Source of the DNA: Dehalococcoidia bacterium
GTDB lineage: Bacteria; Chloroflexota; Dehalococcoidia; Lucifugimonadales; UBA3495
Direction of reading: 5' to 3'
DNA length: 43,210 bases
Assembly (NCBI GenBank): GCA_022825745.1
Contig: JAJDWF010000146.1
Location: 1 to 43,210 of the forward strand
Positions 21,569 through 42,573 of the stretch are shown piece after piece. The notes under the pieces were generated by a model. It was not told where the DNA came from, did no database searches, and was given only the letters and a program-made list of their open reading frames with translations. A program made the position numbers and the translations under genes. Each line of letters begins with the position of its first letter. Position 1 is the first letter of the stretch.

Positions 21569-23101
21569 TCAGCCCAGCCCCCGGGCGCGGTATTGCAGGG
21601 CTTCCGCCAGGTGCGCCGGTCCGATCCGTTCCTCCTCCGCCAGGTCGGCTATCGTCTGCGCCACCTTGACCACCCTATGCAACGCCCGCGCCGACAGGTC
21701 CAGCGTTTGGGCGGCCCGCTGCAATAGCGCCTCGGTGTCGTCCTGTAAGGCGCAGTACTCCCAGATCTTCGACCCCGCCATCTCCGCATTTGAGAACGCC
21801 GCAGTTTCATCATCATTGCTGAACCGCCGTTCCTGGACCGCCCGCGCCGCCAGCACCCGCTCCCGCGCCGCCGCCGACGGTTCCGTTTCCGCCTGCGCCA
21901 GCAGGCTGTCGTACTCCACCGGCGGCACTTCCACGAATATGTCGATGCGCTCCAGCAGCGGCCCGCTGATCCGGCGCTGGTAGCGCGCCACCGCCGACGG
22001 GCTGCACACGCACTGCTTGCGCGGATGCGTGGCGTACCCGCATGGGCACGGATTCATCGCCGCCACCAGCATGAAACTGGCCGGATACGTCACCGTGCCG
22101 CTGACCCTGGTGATGGTCACCGTCTTGTCCTCCAGCGGTTGCCGCAGCGATTCCAGCAGCGCGTGCCCGAACTCCGGCAACTCGTCCAGGAACAGCACTC
22201 CCCGATGGCTCAGCGTGATCTCGCCGGGACGCAGCATCCGGCCGCCGCCCACCAGTCCGGCGTTGGATATGGTGTAGTGCGGCGCGCGGAAGGGACGCTG
22301 CGCGATCAGCGGGCTGTCCGGCGGCAGGTTCCCGCTCACGCTGTAAATCTTGGTGACCTCCAGCGCTTCGTCGGGCGTCAGGTACGGCAGGATGCCCGGC
22401 AGCGCCCGCGCCAGCAGCGTCTTGCCGGAGCCGGGCGGCCCGCTGAACAGGATGTTGTGAAACCCGGCCGCCGCCACCTCCAGCGCCCGCTTGGCGTGGT
22501 CCTGGCCGCGAATGTGGCACAGGTCGGTGTTGTCCGGCGGGTTGCGGTTGCCGTTGAGATAGACCCCGCTGTGCGGGTACGGCGCGATCACCGTCTCGCC
22601 CTGCAGGTGCGCCAGGAGTTGCGCCAGCGTAGCCACCGGATAGACCTGCATCCCGTCCACCAGCGCCGCCTCCGCCGCGTCCACCGCCGGCACGTACACC
22701 GCGCGGATGCCCTGCTCGCGCGCCACCCACACCATGGGCAGGATGCCGGCGGTGTGGCGCAGCCCGCCGTCCAGCGACAGTTCTCCCAGGAAGATGGCCG
22801 GCTCGGCGGGCGGCGCGGCCTGCCCGGTGCTGAACAGTATGCCGGCGGCGATGGGCAGGTCGTAGGCCGGCCCCGCCTTCTTCAAGTCCGCCGGCGCCAG
22901 GTTCACGGTGATGCGGCGCATGGGAAACTCGCAGCCGCTGTTGCGCAGCGCGGCCCGCACCCGCTCCTTGGCCTCCTGCACCGCCGTATCCGGCAGCCCC
23001 ACGATGTGAAAAGCGGGCAGGCCCGGCGAAATATCGGTCTCCGCCTGTATGATCTGGCCGTCCAATCCGACCACCGCGCAAGTTTGAGCTGTTGCCAACA
23101 T
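21569..23101 (-). CDS. comM: ComM/YifB-family magnesium-chelatase-like AAA+ ATPase
   Basis: ComM helicases promote branch migration during natural transformation and integration of foreign DNA. The N-terminal Lon-protease-like ChlI domain (VGLPDTAVQEAKERVRAA, then RRITVNLAPADLKK) is followed by the AAA+ core: Walker A GPPGSGKT near residue 220, Walker B GVLFLDELPEF, sensor region AAMNPCPCG with the zinc-like Cys cluster (CPCGYATHPRKQCVC) and the arginine-finger/sensor 2 domain at the C-terminus. At 510 residues it is full length. An AAGGAG site lies 6 bases before the ATG. Its presence fits DNA uptake, in line with the acquired genes to its right. Confidence 0.94.
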   Translation of the reverse strand: MLATAQTCAVVGLDGQIIQAETDISPGLPAFHIVGLPDTAVQEAKERVRAALRNSGCEFPMRRITVNLAPADLKKAGPAYDLPIAAGILFSTGQAAPPAEPAIFLGELSLDGGLRHTAGILPMVWVAREQGIRAVYVPAVDAAEAALVDGMQVYPVATLAQLLAHLQGETVIAPYPHSGVYLNGNRNPPDNTDLCHIRGQDHAKRALEVAAAGFHNILFSGPPGSGKTLLARALPGILPYLTPDEALEVTKIYSVSGNLPPDSPLIAQRPFRAPHYTISNAGLVGGGRMLRPGEITLSHRGVLFLDELPEFGHALLESLRQPLEDKTVTITRVSGTVTYPASFMLVAAMNPCPCGYATHPRKQCVCSPSAVARYQRRISGPLLERIDIFVEVPPVEYDSLLAQAETEPSAAARERVLAARAVQERRFSNDDETAAFSNAEMAGSKIWEYCALQDDTEALLQRAAQTLDLSARALHRVVKVAQTIADLAEEERIGPAHLAEALQYRARGLG

Positions 23102-23237
23102 ATCGACTCCTTGTATGTCCTGGTGAACCGTGTATCGAACAAATTTTCCGAAACACTATCATACAGAACGTAAGAGCGCAATAACGGGCCGTCACCAATT
23201 CGGGTCCGTTGCGGTTGGCCCCCGTTCTCCTATCGGC

Positions 23238-23243
23238 TACAAT
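23238..23243 (+). promoter_or_regulatory. -10 box of a leaderless promoter for the type IIG gene
   Basis: TACAAT ends 7 bases before the ATG at 23251, so transcription should start at or next to the start codon. No binding site is present. Confidence 0.5.
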
Positions 23244-23250
23244 CAGCCCG

Positions 23251-26200
23251 ATGACTACCACACTCAACGATACCGCAGATAGCGTAGCCGCCTCGTTGCG
23301 CGAGGGGATGCGGCACATCTCCAGCCGGGGGCAACTGGTCAACGAAGCGTCCACTCTGTCGCTGCTGATACAGCCGACGCTCAATGCGCTGGGCTATCCG
23401 GCGACGCACCGGATACCGGAGTACGGCGAGCAGCGGAACCGCCTTGACGAAGCCTGCTTCCTCAACGTGGTCAATTCCAGCCCCGGCCACGCCGCCGTTA
23501 TCGTCGAGGCCAAAGAATACGGTACGGACTTTGACAAATCCGTGGGACGCTTCGGCTCCCCTGACCGTCAGATACAGCGTTATCTCAAGCAGCACGCCGC
23601 CAGTGGGCCGAATACGATCGGCGTGCTCACCGATGGAGCCAAATGGCGCATCTACCGACGTGCCGGGAACGCGGCTAATCCCGACGTTGAGTTTCTGGTT
23701 GAGTACGACTTCCAGACGCTAACACAGCCGGAACAATCTGCTCTGGTAGATTTCGCCCCAGACGTGCAGGTGTGGCTACGAGATTTAGTTGACCGACTGG
23801 CCCGCACCAGCATCGATTCTCGTACCATCCCTAGCCGCCGCCCGGCGCAAGTCAATCCGGCCGACGGTCTTTTTGCCGCTATCGCCGAAAACTTGCAGCC
23901 CGACTACATTTTGCGCCAATTGTTGGATGAACCACAGGTGATGGCGCAAACCAACCTGGCCGATGAGGTCGTTCTGCAAGGCATCCGCAAGGATGTGCAT
24001 GATAACGATTGGGAAACCTACGCCTACAGTCCCGCGATTCCCTTGCAGTCCGACAATCCAACGCTGACCGGCAACCGCGCCGTTATTGCCGCCGTACAGT
24101 ATCGCCATGACCCTGCCCTGGGCCTGAGTCGCCCTGACGTTGCTCTTTGCGCTCGAACCTTCGCCAGCGCCAGCGACTCCGCCGCCGCCGTCGTTATGGC
24201 CTACTCCGCCGCGCCTGACGACAGTATCGAGGCCCGCTTGGCCGTGGCCGCTGGCGGCCAAGTCAATATGACTGCGGCTTTTGACCCCACCTTGCCTGCC
24301 CCGTCGGCCCGGACCGCCATCGGACAACTATTGCCGCTGCTCCACGACCCGGGTGATGGTGTGGCTGCCGACAAACTGCTGTCCCCGCTGGAAGCCGCGC
24401 CGCTGCGTCAGCGATTCTACCGTGAAGTCGCCCAATGGACGGGCCGGATGCAAAAGGACAAAGACCGGCCGCAGCGGCAGGCCATTCTCCGCCACCTGGT
24501 GCGCGTGATGTTCGCCTGGATTCTCAAAGAGGAAAACGTCATCCCGCCGGAACTCTTTGAACGCGCCTTCGTCAGCGCCCACTTGGACGACGCCGGGCGT
24601 TACCATGCCGACGTGCTGCGGTTCCTCTTTCACCAGCGTCTCAACGTGCCCCATCCGGTGCGTTCCGCCCACGCCGTCGCCGCCGTACAGGACGCCATGG
24701 AGCAGACGCCGTTTCTCAACGGGTCACTGTTCGCCGAGCATAGCGACGATGATGAGCTGGACATCGCGCCGGCGGATTACTGGAGCGCCGACGAAAATGA
24801 ACCCGGCCTGTTCACCATCCTTTCCCGTTATCACTGGACAATGGACGAACACCGGCCCGGCGAAAGCGAGCAGACCCTTGACCCGGAACTGTTGAGCAAC
24901 CTCTTTGAGCGGCTGATCACCCCCACCGAGGAAGGCACCGAGCCGCCGCTACGCCAGCCCCAAGGCACGTACTACACGCCGGCGGACGTGGCCGACGAAA
25001 TGGTGAAAGACGCCCTGGCCGCCGCCGTGCGGGATTACGCGCCGGACAACGTCAGCGATGCGGAACTTCTGGACCTGTTCGGCAGCGCCGACGCGCCGCT
25101 GCCGGCAATGACGCCGACGCAGCGGGTACGGTTGACCCGGCGCATCAAGGAATTGCGGATTTTCGACCCCGCCGTCGGCTCCGGCGAATTTCTGTTCAGT
25201 ATGCTGTTGGCGTTGCAGCGCGCCTTGGGCAAGCTGGAACCCGACGCCGCCAATCCCGCCGAGGACATCATCAAACGCCAACTGGCCGGCCAGGACATTC
25301 ACCCGCTGGCGGTACAAATCGCACGGCTGCGGCTCTTTATCGCCATCACCGCCGCCCGCCGAAACGAGCCTACGGATGAGCCGCTCCCCAACTTAGAGGC
25401 GCGCATTGTATGTGCCGACACGTTGGAAACTGTCGCCAACTCGGATTGGCGCCCCGACCGTCCCGGCCAGTTTGACACCGCAGACCCCGAACTCATCGCC
25501 GCCCTCACCGCAGTCGGCGAGAATCGGGCCAACTGGTTCGGCGCCCACACCGAGGACGACAAACAGGCGGTGTTGAAACAGGACAAGGACTTACGCGCCA
25601 ACCTCTCTCAGATGTTGAAGCAGAAAGGCGAACTGGTCAGCCCTGAGTTGGTACACTTCGCCGAGTCGCCACTCTATAACATCAACCCTACGCCGGCGCG
25701 CACCGACGCCAGGCTCCTGTTCTATGAAAACCCCTGGCGCGGTTTTGACATCGTTATCGGCAACCCGCCCTACGAAGCGCTGTCCAAGTCCATGGACCGA
25801 GATAGAGTAAACGCGCTGAAAACGGACAAAGGGTATCAGACCACCAACGTGGGCGACCTGTACTCGCTGTTCTGCGAAACGGCGCTGGCGTTGGCAAAAC
25901 CCGCCGGAGGTGTTGTTACGGTGATTGTCCCGCTCTCCATATCATTTGGAGTCCGGCAACGGTCGCTGAGGGCGGTGTTTGAAAGCCGATGCCGTGAAAT
26001 CAATTTACGGCAATACAATAACAACCCTAGTATGATGTTTCATACTACGCCTACGACGCTAGACCCGCGGAACCGACAGCGAGTAACCATCGCTGCCGCG
26101 ATTACAGGTAACTTTGAGCGTGTAATCAGGTCAACGGGACTACAAAGGTGGCCGTCTGACGAACGCGACTTGTGCCTACAGCAGCGCGAAACCGCCCGCT

Positions 26201-26808
26201 TGCCCCAATTCGGAGCTAGTATCCCCCAGCACGTCACTAGGCAATGGCCGCGCATCCCAACGCAAGAATTGGCGGATATGGTTGAGAGGATCGTTGCGCA
26301 AAAGAAAGCCGTTGGGAGTTACAACGGAGCTGGTGGCCTGAATGCAGCTATTCAAGTAGCGGCGGAATACTTCATCAGTACAATCCCAGCGGGTAGCGTA
26401 TCGCCAAGAACGGAGCAATTGCTGGCAGTGCCTAGTGGTGACGACTTGCGCCTGCTAATGGCGGCGCTCAACGGTCACGTCGCCTATGCGTGGTGGTGGA
26501 TGTATGGTGACGGGTTCCACGTGAAATCCAGTGATTTTGCCGCGCTAACCATTCCGGACACTTGGGTTGAAAATCCGCAACCTGCAATAGACATAGGCCA
26601 ACGTCTTATTGACGCCATGCCAGAGTGCCAAGTGGAGATAACCATACACAGGAAAGTCTGGCGCAACGTGAACTTCCATCTCAAGCCGGACTTGATAGCG
26701 GAGCTGGACCGGATGCATATAGCAGCGTTAGGGCTGCCAGAGGAACCGCTGCTGACGCGCCTGCGCATCATGCGTTCCAACTGCTATTGGAACTATCCTG
26801 CCGCGTAG
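23251..26808 (+). CDS. type IIG restriction-modification enzyme (Eco57I-like nuclease-methyltransferase fusion)
   Basis: A single 1185-residue protein appears to hold both activities. The N-terminal third has a PD-(D/E)XK nuclease motif (RLDEACF, then AAVIVEAKEYGTDF near residues 84-97, with a downstream Gln-rich helix). The methyltransferase core starts with motif I FDPAVGSGEFLFSML near residue 637 and has catalytic motif IV IGNPPYEAL near 835, the NPPY pointing to N6-adenine methylation. The last 250 residues would be target recognition; there base composition falls and codon use is less biased than in neighbours, consistent with transfer. No separate specificity, BREX or DISARM gene is adjacent. 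PglX-like proteins of similar length are the main alternative, but the N-terminal nuclease argues for type IIG. Confidence 0.85.
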   Translation: MTTTLNDTADSVAASLREGMRHISSRGQLVNEASTLSLLIQPTLNALGYPATHRIPEYGEQRNRLDEACFLNVVNSSPGHAAVIVEAKEYGTDFDKSVGRFGSPDRQIQRYLKQHAASGPNTIGVLTDGAKWRIYRRAGNAANPDVEFLVEYDFQTLTQPEQSALVDFAPDVQVWLRDLVDRLARTSIDSRTIPSRRPAQVNPADGLFAAIAENLQPDYILRQLLDEPQVMAQTNLADEVVLQGIRKDVHDNDWETYAYSPAIPLQSDNPTLTGNRAVIAAVQYRHDPALGLSRPDVALCARTFASASDSAAAVVMAYSAAPDDSIEARLAVAAGGQVNMTAAFDPTLPAPSARTAIGQLLPLLHDPGDGVAADKLLSPLEAAPLRQRFYREVAQWTGRMQKDKDRPQRQAILRHLVRVMFAWILKEENVIPPELFERAFVSAHLDDAGRYHADVLRFLFHQRLNVPHPVRSAHAVAAVQDAMEQTPFLNGSLFAEHSDDDELDIAPADYWSADENEPGLFTILSRYHWTMDEHRPGESEQTLDPELLSNLFERLITPTEEGTEPPLRQPQGTYYTPADVADEMVKDALAAAVRDYAPDNVSDAELLDLFGSADAPLPAMTPTQRVRLTRRIKELRIFDPAVGSGEFLFSMLLALQRALGKLEPDAANPAEDIIKRQLAGQDIHPLAVQIARLRLFIAITAARRNEPTDEPLPNLEARIVCADTLETVANSDWRPDRPGQFDTADPELIAALTAVGENRANWFGAHTEDDKQAVLKQDKDLRANLSQMLKQKGELVSPELVHFAESPLYNINPTPARTDARLLFYENPWRGFDIVIGNPPYEALSKSMDRDRVNALKTDKGYQTTNVGDLYSLFCETALALAKPAGGVVTVIVPLSISFGVRQRSLRAVFESRCREINLRQYNNNPSMMFHTTPTTLDPRNRQRVTIAAAITGNFERVIRSTGLQRWPSDERDLCLQQRETARLPQFGASIPQHVTRQWPRIPTQELADMVERIVAQKKAVGSYNGAGGLNAAIQVAAEYFISTIPAGSVSPRTEQLLAVPSGDDLRLLMAALNGHVAYAWWWMYGDGFHVKSSDFAALTIPDTWVENPQPAIDIGQRLIDAMPECQVEITIHRKVWRNVNFHLKPDLIAELDRMHIAALGLPEEPLLTRLRIMRSNCYWNYPAA

Positions 26809-26849
26809 CCACACCCACGCGTACCCGCTTTCTCTCGCGGGGAGAATCT

Positions 26850-27130
26850 AATGACACTCTCCCCTTGCCTAAACCCGCCGCCCATCCGTACCATTTAACT
26901 ATCCAACCGCCTAGATCCATCCCGCCGCCCAACTCCAACCCGCGGTCGAATGCCCTACTCGAAACGCCGCTCCCCCAAATCCTTTCGCCGGCCCGCCAAA
27001 ACCGCCTATATCGCCACCAAAACCCGCCCAATCCGCCCCCATTTACCCCCGTATCTCGCCCCAACTCCCTACTCAAATGATAGGAAATGAGCGGAAATAA
27101 GCGGGATTTTGCCAAAATCGCCACCATCCC
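26850..27130 (+). repeat. C/A-rich dispersed element with 10-bp iterons, copy A
   Basis: The 442-base gap between the type IIG gene and the Uma2 gene holds no gene but one copy of a repeated element, also at 34388 and (reversed) at 42235. It opens with TGACACTCTCCCCTTGCCTA, contains CATCCGTACCATTTAAC, is nearly free of G on this strand, and ends in three tandem 10-mers at 27075-27104 (AAATGATAGG, AAATGAGCGG, AAATAAGCGG) then GATTTTGCCAAAAT. C-runs at 27023-27050 give a four-run G-quadruplex motif on the other strand. Confidence 0.8.
27075..27104 (+). repeat. three 10-bp direct repeats closing copy A
   Basis: AAATGATAGG, AAATGAGCGG and AAATAAGCGG stand head to tail with exact 10-bp period, one turn of DNA helix. 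The same block ends the other two copies of the element. Confidence 0.85.
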
Positions 27131-27250
27131 ACCTTACTCCCATGAAAGCCCCTGGTGTGATGGAATCGCCCTTCGCCCCGGCGCGTATGTTTGCCGTCAG
27201 GTATAATTCCGCCATACCTGTCCGCGCCGTCCCGCAGCAAGGAGAGCGCC

Positions 27251-27991
27251 ATGACCACCGCTAACATTTACGTCAAGACGCCGCCGGATCCGGGCCGTTT
27301 CCGACTGCCCGACATCCCACAGCGAGGGCCAGATGAAGTGACCAGCCACAAGCAGCTTACCCACACTGGCCATGCCCACCACTTGGCCGTCCATCTGGGC
27401 AATCCCGAAACCACGCTGGTGACCGCCGACCGTTGGATCATCGCCGCGCCGAGCACCTTTCGGGAACTGGCCCGCTATCCTGACCTGCTGGTGGCCTTTG
27501 ACGTGAACCCGGCGGCCTACGAAGCCAGCAACGGGTACATCATCTCGGAACAAGGCAAGCCGCCGGACTTCGTGCTGGAGGTAGCGTCGGAAAGCACGGG
27601 GAGCCTGGACGTAGGGGCGAAACGGAACGACTACGCCAGGTTGGGGATACTGGAATACTGGCGGTTTGACGAGACGGGGCAGTATCACGGGGCGCGGCTG
27701 GCTGGAGACAGATTGGCGGATGGCGTGTACGTACCGATCCAGATCGACCAGCTGCCGGACGACGTGTTGCAGGGGTACAGCCGGGCGTTGAACGTGTTGT
27801 TGCGTTGGGAGAACGGCGCGCTGGGGTGGCACGACCCGGCGACGCAAGATCACATCGCCACGTTTGAGAGTGAGCGGGCGGCGCGGATGCTGGAGCGCGA
27901 GGCACGGATTCGGGTGGAGGCTGAGCGCAATGCAGCAGCAGCCCGCGTGCGTGAGCTGGAAGCGCAGCTGCAACGGCTGCGCGACGACTGA
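27251..27991 (+). CDS. Uma2-family (DUF820) nuclease-like protein, copy 2
   Basis: This is a close relative of the protein at 11581-12279: both have a long polar N-terminus, then YPDLLVAF (D78), KPPDFVLEVAS (D106, E110), a Lys in GAKRNDYARL (K124), LEYWRFD, and a C-terminal coiled coil (ERAARMLEREARIRVEAE and so on) longer here than in copy 1. The motifs of the PD-(D/E)XK fold are intact. The role of Uma2 proteins is unproven. A promoter TATAAT at 27202-27207 and an AGGAGAG site before the ATG support the start. Confidence 0.88.
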   Translation: MTTANIYVKTPPDPGRFRLPDIPQRGPDEVTSHKQLTHTGHAHHLAVHLGNPETTLVTADRWIIAAPSTFRELARYPDLLVAFDVNPAAYEASNGYIISEQGKPPDFVLEVASESTGSLDVGAKRNDYARLGILEYWRFDETGQYHGARLAGDRLADGVYVPIQIDQLPDDVLQGYSRALNVLLRWENGALGWHDPATQDHIATFESERAARMLEREARIRVEAERNAAAARVRELEAQLQRLRDD

Positions 27992-28092
27992 CCGACCACC
28001 AACGGCGCCTATATTTGCAGTCGGGTATAAATGACGGTGGGCGTGGGGAATGACGGGCCTAGGCGCGCTTTGCCATCGCTGCCAACCTAATC

Positions 28093-32108: not shown

Positions 32109-32123
32109 TCGCTAGGAGGTACG

Positions 32124-33434
32124 ATGCCAACGACTGTCGCCAGTCCTTCAAGCAATCAAAACCAGTTACTGCCGGACGACCGAGGCGTTCACGACTGGTA
32201 TCGCTTCGTCCTGTCCTTTCCGCCGCACTTGGTCAGAACGTACATCGAAAGGTTCGGCATTGATGAATCTCAGGTTGTCCTGGATCCTTTCTGCGGCGCG
32301 GGAACGACGCTGGTAGAGTCCAAGAAATCCGGTATCGCCAGCGTGGGGATGGATTCTCATCCGATGGCTTATTTCGCGAGTTCGGTCAAGGTTGACTGGT
32401 CAATGAGCGCTGATCGCGTACTGGCTTATGCCGGTCAGGTCGCTGAGTCTTTCAACGAGACCATGGCAGATGTGGAACAGAATGCGCTCATCCGCGATAG
32501 TGACACGCTCCAACATACCGATTCACTCATAGGACTCCTGGGCCCCGAAGAATCCAAGTTGCTTATAAAAGACTCAATCAGTCCCAAGCCGGTTCTGAAG
32601 ACATTAGCCTTGTTACACAAGATTAACGAACATGGGGACGCTAGCCTCCGCAACATCGGGCGGCTCGCCCTCGCCGGAGCGCTTGTGAATGGTGTGAGTA
32701 ATTTGAAATTCGGACCTGAGGTGGGTGTAGGACGAATTAGAGCTGACGCCCCTGTCTTGGAAACTTGGGGTGAACGCATTCAACGGATGGCCGACGACTT
32801 GCGGTTCGTCCATGACCGAACAGACATCCCGGCACGCGTCATCAAATTCGACGCCCGAAACATGGAGCAGGGGCTCGCGCCTGAATCTGTGGACGCAGTT
32901 ATCACTTCTCCGCCATACCCAAACGAAAAAGACTACACTAGGACCACTCGTTTGGAGTCGGTTTTGTTGGGCTTGATTACGAGCCGCAATGAACTGCGGC
33001 AAGTCAAACAGGACCTCCTGAGGTCAAACACCAGAGGGGTCTATAAAGACGATGCCGATGATCGATCTGTGGACGGCTTCCAAAGCATCGCCGAAATCTC
33101 CGACGCAATAGAACGCCGGCGTATCGAACTGGGCAAAACATCAGGGTTTGAACGGCTGTACGCCAGGGTAACCAGGTTGTATTTCGGCGGCATGTTCAGG
33201 CACCTCTCTTCTCTGAGAACTGTTCTGCGACCGGGCGCGAAACTGGCGTATGTCGTAGGAGATCAAGCATCGTTCCTGCGTATAATGATTCCCACAGGTC
33301 AGATAATAGCGGACATTGCTGAATCGTTAGGTTATCGTGTAATCGACATTGACCTCTTCCGCACCAGATTTTCCACCGCAACAGGTCAGCACTTGCGGGA
33401 AGAAGTTGTTGTGCTGGAATGGTCCAGCGATTAA
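32124..33434 (+). CDS. DNA methyltransferase of a type II restriction-modification pair
   Basis: The 436-residue protein has SAM-binding motif I VLDPFCGAGTTLVE at residues 52-65 and catalytic motif IV TSPPYPNEKDYTR near 262-274. SPPY points to N4-cytosine (or beta-type N6-adenine) methylation. The motif order I then IV, with about 200 residues between, fits a form in which target recognition lies in the middle. An AGGAGGT site precedes the ATG. The gene has lower GC and more mixed codons than its neighbours, and with the next gene forms a cassette between two dispersed repeats, which suggests transfer. Confidence 0.9.
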   Translation: MPTTVASPSSNQNQLLPDDRGVHDWYRFVLSFPPHLVRTYIERFGIDESQVVLDPFCGAGTTLVESKKSGIASVGMDSHPMAYFASSVKVDWSMSADRVLAYAGQVAESFNETMADVEQNALIRDSDTLQHTDSLIGLLGPEESKLLIKDSISPKPVLKTLALLHKINEHGDASLRNIGRLALAGALVNGVSNLKFGPEVGVGRIRADAPVLETWGERIQRMADDLRFVHDRTDIPARVIKFDARNMEQGLAPESVDAVITSPPYPNEKDYTRTTRLESVLLGLITSRNELRQVKQDLLRSNTRGVYKDDADDRSVDGFQSIAEISDAIERRRIELGKTSGFERLYARVTRLYFGGMFRHLSSLRTVLRPGAKLAYVVGDQASFLRIMIPTGQIIADIAESLGYRVIDIDLFRTRFSTATGQHLREEVVVLEWSSD

Positions 33435-33450
33435 CAAGAAGGCGTCTCAT

Positions 33451-34248
33451 ATGCGTGCACCGAACCGATATGAACAAATTTTGACCAAAGTTTTCTTCGA
33501 CCACTATGTGGAGGGTTCCCGACAGGTTGAATTTACCCGGCAGGACCTCATCGACGCTGCCGAAGAACTCGGCTTGGACCGTCCCCTCAACATCGGAGAC
33601 ATACCGTACAGTTTTCGACACAGAGGTTTGAGACCCGCTCAGATCATGGAAACCGCGCCCGATGGCGAAACATGGCTCTGGCGGAGCGGCGGAACCAGCA
33701 TCTACCGGCTCGTAATGGTTCCGGATAGACCTATCGCGCCGAATCAGAACCTGGCGGTTACCAAAATACCGGATGCTACCCCTGGGATTGTAGCGTGGCA
33801 TTCCCAAAGCGATGAGCAAGCGTTGTTGGCGCGCCTGCGCTACAACCGCCTGATTGACATCTTCTTGGGAATAACCTGCTATTCGCTGCAAAACCACTTG
33901 CGGACTACCGTTGAGGGCATCGGACAAATCGAAACGGACGAGATCTATGTGGGGATAGACAGGCGAGGATCGCAGTACGTCGTGCCGGTGCAAGCGAAAT
34001 CTGAAAACGACCAGATCGGACGAGTGCAAATCGAGCAGGATATTTCTTTGTGTGAGGAAAGGTGGACTGCGCTCATCTGCCGCCCGATAGCCGCTCAAAT
34101 GATGGGGAACGACACCATTGCCCTGTTCGAGTTTGAGCTACAGGCCGATGACGTTAAGATAGTGTCGGAAAGGCACTATCAACTCGTCGAACCGGAACAA
34201 ATGACGACAGAGGATTTGCAGTCGTATCGACAACGCTCATTGGACTGA
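33451..34248 (+). CDS. probable type II restriction endonuclease with PD-(D/E)XK-like site, 265 aa
   Basis: I recognise no named family, but the centre has a nuclease-like site: IETDEIYVGIDRRGSQYVVP then VQAKSENDQ, with D163/E164 and D170 ahead of Q181-x-K183, a QxK variant of the (D/E)XK motif. The N-terminal 90 residues look like a winged-helix DNA-binding region (RYEQILTKVFFDHYVEGSRQ and so on). It starts 16 bases after the methyltransferase stop with an AAGAAGG site, the usual layout of a type II pair. Composition is as AT-rich as its partner. The endonuclease call is inference from motif and partner; DNA specificity unknown. Confidence 0.75.
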   Translation: MRAPNRYEQILTKVFFDHYVEGSRQVEFTRQDLIDAAEELGLDRPLNIGDIPYSFRHRGLRPAQIMETAPDGETWLWRSGGTSIYRLVMVPDRPIAPNQNLAVTKIPDATPGIVAWHSQSDEQALLARLRYNRLIDIFLGITCYSLQNHLRTTVEGIGQIETDEIYVGIDRRGSQYVVPVQAKSENDQIGRVQIEQDISLCEERWTALICRPIAAQMMGNDTIALFEFELQADDVKIVSERHYQLVEPEQMTTEDLQSYRQRSLD

Positions 34249-34252
34249 TACC

Positions 34253-34387
34253 TCCTACCCATCCCCACAAAATCAATGTCGCCCAACTTTTTGTGAATCA
34301 CGTGCTTTTTGTGGCCAAAAGCCGCCCAATCGCCCCCCACAATCACCCATAATCCCCAAAACCCCCAGTTCAGACAACCTCCGCCCC
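34253..34387 (+). repeat. partial C-rich repeat segment before copy B
   Basis: This non-coding stretch resembles the 3' part of the dispersed element: CCGCCCAATCGCCCCCCACA matches CCGCCCAATCCGCCCCCATT in copy A. It may be the remnant of a second, truncated copy in tandem. C-runs at 34325-34366 give a G-quadruplex motif on the other strand. The unique start (GTCGCCCAACTTTTTGTGAA) shows nothing else. Confidence 0.5.
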
Positions 34388-34655
34388 GGTGACACTCCCC
34401 CCTTGCTCTAACCCCTCCCCCATCCGTACCATATTACCCAGCGCCCAAATCCAACCCGCCACTCAGGCCCGCGAGAGCCGTCCCAATGCCCACTTCCAAA
34501 CACCGCGAACCCCGCTCCCCCAAACCCGCTCACCTGCCCGCGAATACCGCTAAAACCGCCACCAAAACCCTTCCCTCGGCCCCCAAATCAGCCCCACGAC
34601 CCGCCTAATACCATACTTGAATTAGCGGAAATGAGAGGAAATGAGCGGGAAATCG
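34388..34655 (+). repeat. C/A-rich dispersed element with 10-bp iterons, copy B
   Basis: Begins GGTGACACTCCCCCCTTGCT, has CATCCGTACCATATTACC, CGCTCCCCCAAA and ACCGCCACCAAAACCC in the same order as copy A, and ends with three 10-mers at 34619-34648 (GAATTAGCGG, AAATGAGAGG, AAATGAGCGG). It fills the gap between the type II restriction-modification cassette and the propeller gene; no gene is seen in it. C-runs at 34568-34595 form the quadruplex motif. Confidence 0.78.
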
Positions 34656-34767
34656 ACCTTTCCGCTCGCCTGATTGTCCCTTGTGCTATCATGCCCACGG
34701 CGGCGGGCCTTATCGCCGTCCATCCGGCATTCCGCGTTACGCATTGCATCCATCGCAGGAGGTAATC

Positions 34768-41813: not shown

Positions 41814-41880
41814 AGATAAAACAGTAAACCGTGGGATGTGCAGCTATTGTAGCCGTAGGGCCGGGAAGGGTCAAACATGG

Positions 41881-42216
41881 CTAGCGCGCCGGGACGACGG
41901 GGAGGTCGCGGTTGAAGAATTCACGGTAGCGGCCCTGGCTGGCCCAGGGGAGGAGGCTGACGACGATACGGCGCGGCTCGGGGACGTCGCCCTGGCTCCG
42001 GGTGTCCTTGAGGTAGTGTTGGAGTCGCATGAAGGTGGTCAGGCGGAAGCCGGCTTTGGCGATACGCTGGATGACGTCGTGGGGTTCGGGTGGTTCGTCG
42101 AGGTCCCAGTCGTTGGCGACGGCTTCGGCGATGCGGCGGAGCCGGATGATGGCGAGTTCGAGGACGAACTTGCGCTTGAGGGCGTTGACGCGGCGACGGA
42201 TTTGGGCAAGGGTCAT
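41881..42216 (-). CDS. small basic uncharacterised protein beside element copy C, 111 aa
   Basis: No family recognised. It is basic and helical at the start (AQIRRRVNALKRKFVLELAI), with PPEPHDVIQRIAKAGFRLTT in the middle and a C-terminal RIVVSLLPWASQGRY. No membrane segment. The start at 42216 has a GAGG site 8 bases upstream. It begins 50 bases after the iterons of copy C, so the element forms its upstream region, and possibly its promoter or a companion. A nucleic-acid-binding role is only a guess from the basic N-terminus. Confidence 0.65.
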   Translation of the reverse strand: MTLAQIRRRVNALKRKFVLELAIIRLRRIAEAVANDWDLDEPPEPHDVIQRIAKAGFRLTTFMRLQHYLKDTRSQGDVPEPRRIVVSLLPWASQGRYREFFNRDLPVVPAR

Positions 42217-42234: not shown

Positions 42235-42515
42235 ATGGTCTGAATGTGGGGATTTTGGCGAAATCCCGCTCATTTCCTCTCATTTGCGTTCATTTGAGTA
42301 GGACGTTGAGCGGGTGATGGGGGCGGAATGGGCGGGTTTTGGGGGCGATAATGGTGGTTTTGGCGGGCTATTGAGAGGGTTTGGGGGTGGTGGTTCGACA
42401 GGCTCACCATGAACGGAGGACGGGGTAATCGTGATGGACTTGGGCGATTGGATGGTTGAGTTAAATGGTACGGATGGATGGAGGTTAGGGGCAAGGGGGA
42501 AGTGTCACTGGATGG
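42235..42515 (-). repeat. C/A-rich dispersed element with 10-bp iterons, copy C (reversed)
   Basis: On the minus strand it reads GTGACACTTCCCCCTTGCCC, then CATCCGTACCATTTAACTCA, then a C/A-rich body and three 10-mers at 42266-42295 (complement of GCGTTCATTT, CCTCTCATTT and CCGCTCATTT), ending GATTTCGCCAAAAT as in copy A. A 25-base dispersed repeat (42392-42416) is inserted in the middle. G-runs at 42312-42345 form the quadruplex motif. The 502-base gap 42217-42718 has no other gene. Confidence 0.8.
42392..42416 (-). repeat. dispersed TTCGACAGGCTCA-type repeat
   Basis: GGTTCGACAGGCTCACCATG followed by AACGG is the partner of the repeat at 17044-17067, in the opposite direction, and lies inside element copy C. 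Confidence 0.65.
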
Positions 42516-42537
42516 TCGTACGCGAGAGGCGGCGGGG

Positions 42538-42573
42538 TTTTCTGGATTCCCGCTTTCGCGGGAATGACGGGGG
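42538..42573 (-). repeat. dispersed hairpin repeat, copy 3
   Basis: TTTCTGGATTCCCGC-TTTC-GCGGGAATGACGGGGG. The 8-bp stem is perfect and of the CCCGC/GCGGG type. It lies just outside element copy C and 29 bases before the hicAB promoter. Confidence 0.8.

Follow-up and report, generated by a model that had tools for sequence, protein, structure and literature searches.

What are the three similar repeats that lie dispersed along contig JAJDWF010000146.1 of a Dehalococcoidia bacterium, and what placed them there? In the window (the whole analysed stretch of 43,210 nucleotides), a sequence-only reading had located them at 26850-27130 (c1), 34388-34655 (c2) and, reversed, 42235-42515 (c3). It described an element without a gene that ends in three 10-bp iterons, offered a non-autonomous mobile element, a structured RNA gene or a hot spot for insertion as explanations, and proposed a comparison with shuffled sequence and searches for further copies and target-site duplications as checks. 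The three copies are indeed similar at these positions, with pairwise local alignment scores of 140, 179 and 91 vs. shuffled means of about 23 (300 dinucleotide shuffles per copy pair; z = 22 to 47). Because the scores (91-179) exceed all shuffled scores (maximum 40), chance and base composition alone are excluded as the source of the similarity. Each copy has the common left motif TGACACT...TTGC...CATCCGTACCAT together with three units of 10 bp, mostly AAATGAnnGG, and the window's own genome (G000, a 2.99 Mb draft) contains about 20 copies. We consider it likely, with a probability of roughly 80%, that they belong to a family of MITEs or mobile insertion cassettes that transposases of the IS4 type mobilise in trans, that the core has directional activity, probably that of a promoter, and that only copies reading into the start of a gene persist. 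The copies c1, c2 and c3 would then be relics of non-autonomous TIR transposons within one, presumably sponge-associated, clade of Chloroflexota.

The conserved core is all of the element that the sequence-only reading had described, and the iterons are not its end, since the element extends beyond them. The left border TGACACT was likewise rejected as a transposon terminus because subfamilies share differing sequence further left, continuing for another 50-205 bp up to the real TIRs. Two unrelated kinds of end, here called C-type and A-type, carry the same core. The C-type element is about 510 bp long, has the ends CTCACGCGTACCC, is flanked by target duplications of 9-10 bp and lacks an ORF. 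Fourteen complete copies of 485-517 bp, with both TIRs (CTCACGCGTACCCGC...), are found in one related species (G005), and TCTGGACTCC, GGCCCAAAGC and CATCCTGACC are perfect C-type target duplications.

The C-type ends match those of an IS4-family insertion sequence of 1181 bp, which is present in G010 and G013 and encodes a DDE transposase of 360 aa (Pfam DDE_Tnp_1, E = 5.9e-12). Copies of this partner IS (L253, L257, L262 and L252) also carry perfect target duplications of 9-10 bp (CATATTGACG, ATCCTCACG, CCCGCAACC and AATGCTCAC), and over the 18 TIR-bounded insertions (14 C-type and 4 IS) the flank identity is 0.88 vs. 0.36 for mispaired flanks (maximum 0.47). The IS4 family is defined by the YREK motif, Y-(2)-R-(3)-E-(6)-K (PMC2266710), and this motif is legible as YRKRMQPEQYFKDGK in the IS copy of G005 (L231); a DDE transposase with YREK, together with a target duplication of about 10 bp, places the partner IS in that family. 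Only about 19 terminal bp are common to the C-type elements and the partner IS, and the IS4-family transposase may be pictured as moving the C-type elements in trans by cut-and-paste. A search of the window's own genome did not reveal the partner transposase, but this genome is a 92% complete draft, in which an IS with several copies may have dropped out. Related genomes also contain very short elements that have C-type ends but no core (L236 318-492, L243 516-605 and L252 2594-2732); hence these ends move other short sequences too. By eye, an apparent second, disrupted transposase-like ORF can be seen on the reverse strand to the left of the IS4-type gene in the G005 IS copy (L231 60-1750).

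The A-type element is longer (about 780-1080 bp), has the ends CAGGGCCTTTCGATT and usually carries an ORF of 110 aa; its end pattern gave 42 matches vs. 0 for the reversed pattern. Two complete cored copies, L105 (781 bp) and L126 (787 bp), have ORFs of 107-110 aa and duplications matching at 8/10 positions, and the longer copies (1073-1081 bp) show no clear duplication. Of the short members that lack the core, L299 and L284 are flanked by perfect duplications (10 bp and 9 bp, respectively). On the right side several ORF-bearing copies are ragged. No autonomous partner with A-type ends was found in the genomes searched, and a second, predicted IS4-like transposase would move these elements; both CA and CT ends, with repeats of 8-10 bp, are known in the IS4 family (PMC2266710). 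In relatives, the family combines TIRs, target duplications and, for the C-type only, ends common with an autonomous element, as expected of MITEs, and L105 and L126 have the make-up of mobile insertion cassettes, with TIRs around a passenger gene and no transposase. The mobility of the family is well supported, and of the explanations offered at the outset it is the non-autonomous mobile element that the TIRs, the 9-10 bp duplications and the partner IS of the complete relatives support.

The window copies themselves are less complete. The duplications of 9-10 bp are seen at complete copies in relatives; none of the three window copies has a target duplication or an intact TIR pair, and their family membership hence rests on core homology and on one TIR-like sequence at c1. 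That sequence, CCCACGCGTACCCGC (26814..26828, plus strand), begins 37 bp to the left of the core and differs from the C-type end by one mismatch in 13. The c1 core (26852..27120, plus strand) has a promoter-like block, TTGCCT-N18-TACCAT (26865..26894), a C-rich leader and the iterons AAATGATAGG, AAATGAGCGG and AAATAAGCGG (27075..27104), but no ORF; c1 is a relic with one C-like left end and no clear right end. For c2 the homologous stretch (34280..34665, plus strand) is longer than the interval first given, and is repeated about 25 times in G005, most copies being 75-85% identical; c2 is a C-type copy truncated at both ends, with both TIRs missing. Its core (34390..34650) has TTGCTC-N18-TACCAT at 34403..34432 and iterons at 34619..34648. 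On the minus strand, the c3 core (42240..42513) has TTGCCC-N18-TACCAT at 42465..42494 and iterons at 42266..42295, followed by an ORF of 111 aa (41881..42216) that is preceded by GAGG and belongs to the typically 110-aa family; c3 is an ORF-bearing copy whose ends are not recognisable. The small basic protein that had been listed as an accessory neighbour of c3 is this very ORF, the element's own, and the statement that the element contains no gene does not hold for the family, about half of whose copies carry the ORF. Directly past the stop codon of the c3 ORF, host sequence shared with G009 begins again at 41876, and a related core lies at the same location in that genome; c1 and c2 were not found in the corresponding slots of the relatives examined. 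The dispersed short repeats CGTCATTCCCGCGAAAGCGGGAATCC and TCATGGTGAGCCTGTCGAAC adjoin element copies or sit inside them (window 42530-42565, minus strand, and element bodies).

Over 64 copies, conservation in the core is highest at TGACACTT, at TTGCC, at TACCAT and in the iteron block AAATGAnCGG AAATGAGnGG AAATGAGCGGG. In 52 copies 18 bp separate TTGCCx from TACCAT, in 5 copies the spacer is 17 bp, and a further 12 counts of 25-26 fit a loose search pattern that catches an upstream TTCCC instead. The distance from TACCAT to the iterons varies from 146 to 261 (sd 24). A sigma-70 promoter calls for two hexamers 16-18 bp apart; with a spacer of 17-18 bp, the hexamers of this block fit the sigma-70 consensus at only 8/12 positions, under the threshold of a promoter scan, which did not report them. 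From these sequence features promoter activity of the core may be inferred, and the core would drive rightward transcription. A single conserved non-coding block with a promoter-like start might also suggest a structured non-coding RNA gene, or a riboswitch-like leader, in many copies. This proposal, which had been among the first explanations offered, seems very improbable, however, as an Rfam search of the window gave no match and the consensus fold of 24 copies reaches only -2.8 kcal/mol, its 6 pairs being free of compensatory changes; folding of single copies gave z-scores of -0.45 (c1) and -2.19 (c3).

A marked pattern concerns orientation: nearly all copies are situated on the 5' side of a gene and face into it. 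The downstream neighbour gene is co-directional in 70 of 74 copies, vs. 58.6% expected from the length-weighted background of intergenic regions (p = 2e-12, an optimistic value because some copies may be orthologous between species); gene orientation was taken from codon-usage gene calls by a script trained on the window. The bias is seen in 15 of 16 C-type copies, nearly all from G005. Where the same ends bound a coreless element or an IS copy, 15 of 23 flanks show a gene start, near background, albeit in a small control set. Since the ends of TIR transposons are symmetrical, the most likely cause of the bias is that inserted copies are selected according to some directional feature of the core; a promoter reading rightward is the simplest candidate. 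Copies producing antisense RNA would be lost, and those reading into the start of a gene would be tolerated or useful. A family with symmetrical ends, nearly all of whose cored copies read into gene starts and whose coreless members do not, could serve as a natural test of how mobile elements are selected by what they transcribe.

The main rival keeps the same mobile element and derives the bias from the base composition of its core. Transcribed antisense by neighbouring genes, a copy would yield G-rich RNA and R-loops, and such copies would be lost; the sense RNA is C-rich, and a promoter is not needed. The three cores do have the strongest GC skew in the window, with (G-C)/(G+C) of about -0.5, and the bias is equal with the ORF (33/35 copies) and without it (37/39). 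We nevertheless regard this as unlikely, because it leaves unexplained the invariant TTG and TACCAT and the fixed 18-bp spacer amid otherwise variable distances. The leader of about 200 nt, C-rich, G-poor and without conserved structure, could also be taken for a Rho-utilisation site, which would make the element a mobile Rho-dependent attenuator or insulator before genes. An attenuator alone would leave the scarcity of reversed copies unexplained and rut sites have no strict consensus, however, and we hold this role to be improbable.

Insertion sites could also be compared between species. At cysS (L010) and sucC (L008) the element is present and relatives without it provide the empty site. 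The right junction directly adjoins a -35-like sequence of the host at sucC and beside L009, and the insertion at cysS, 1.5 kb long, consists of the element and another gene. Apparent orthologous insertions (L004/L094 and L002/L091/L104) were set aside because their shared flanks are genes that recur in several places. The 1.5-kb insertion at cysS, and the position of the window copies in or beside accessory slots, might be understood if accessory gene and element moved together as integron-like or other site-specific cassettes. Such cassettes seem highly unlikely, however, given that some copies precede the housekeeping genes sucC, cysS and lepA, that complete elements are bounded by TIRs with duplications of 9-10 bp, and that the slots vary between species also without the element.

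Two of these slots, at 23100-28070 and 32120-34680 of the window, are intergenic insertion hot spots whose content and length differ in each relative, the first being about 187 bp in G011 and 1.1-7.3 kb elsewhere, the second about 3-4 kb in three relatives. The suggested hot spot for insertion thus holds for the surroundings of the copies, but it characterises the loci, not the element itself. A Uma2-family gene lies at 27251-27991 (Pfam Uma2, E = 5.8e-15), and related genomes contain many scattered matches to it (69-76% similarity), some of them next to element copies.

In many copies the core is followed on its 3' side by a GAGGTA-like ribosome site and then the 110-aa ORF. Seven near-intact ORF copies are found in G000 and 11-27 matches, fragments included, in each of the other main carriers. 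All 51 intact versions can be aligned from end to end and show a coding pattern (codon-position entropies of 0.57/0.39/0.72). Pairwise dN/dS has a median of 0.6, with 0.25-0.55 within genomes and 0.6-1.3 between the consensuses of genomes (species), values that codon bias may inflate; hence the ORF is under purifying constraint within genomes, but this is moderate at best and the protein is not strongly conserved. For 50 of the 51 the nearest neighbour is in the same genome, consistent with bursts that occurred separately in each lineage, or with gene conversion. The AlphaFold2 model of the protein is all-helical (mean pLDDT 93). No family match was obtained in Pfam, PHROGs or PADLOC, NCBIfam gave a single match far below its cut-off, and IMG/VR held no viral relative. 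The idea that the ORF encodes a transposase was set aside for want of a family match and of any meaningful neighbour in structural searches that included the PDB (best Z 3.0, which excludes nothing). A widely distributed family was not borne out either, as a profile search of about 290 other genomes of the class gave nothing convincing and one weak match (E = 0.003). With its confident all-helical model, the orphan protein is a candidate for a new, element-borne protein family. We tentatively raise the possibility that the core, whether or not it comes with the orphan gene, forms a self-contained regulatory unit that at least two unrelated transposon ends have acquired and that provides transcription starts before accessory as well as housekeeping genes; the small helical protein would control this unit, perhaps by binding the iterons.

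Several known systems resemble parts of this family. MIC231 cassettes are bounded by TIRs, lack a transposase, are related to IS4-family elements and are modular, and the same can be said of the Chloroflexota elements. These differ, however, in their ends and host phylum, in a cargo made up of a regulatory core common to two unrelated TIR types and an orphan ORF, and in their many copies per genome with a strong orientation bias. Correia elements are shorter and have no ORF; the likeness, which is by description and not by sequence, lies in the position 5' of genes and the supposed promoter, whereas the Chloroflexota core combines iterons with a C-rich leader and has a putative promoter. The Correia elements of Neisseria are multi-copy, non-autonomous and mostly upstream of genes, with sigma-70-like promoters (PMC10969869), and the MIC231 mobile insertion cassettes (IS231, IS4 family) are cited for the Bacillus cereus group (PMC2266710). 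The partner IS is similar to the IS10 subgroup of the IS4 family in its YREK motif, CT ends, direct repeats of 9-10 bp and single ORF, but at 1181 bp it is slightly under the listed size range (PMC2266710). What sets the family apart from these systems is that one core occurs within two unrelated end types, that it can come with an orphan ORF, and that the orientation bias is so strong. Among titles and abstracts on MITEs in Chloroflexi or on insertion sequences of sponge Chloroflexota, none names the element. The identity proposed here would account for a puzzling repeat of this sponge-associated lineage and tie it to the partner IS.

The element search gave nothing of note in other genera. 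Within the genus, 19-24 matches were found in each of the related species G002, G005, G006 and G009 and 8 in G011, and seven other species have no match or one marginal match each. The carriers with named records are Dehalococcoidia or Chloroflexota MAGs, with isolate names such as IRC4, APA, SB0662, SB0666 and jk18x27, which we take to be sponge-associated. One carrier bin, G006, holds two lepA copies (on C3 and C31; L051/L200 and L193) that are 94% identical over the searched stretch, suggesting a mixed bin or a strain duplicate.
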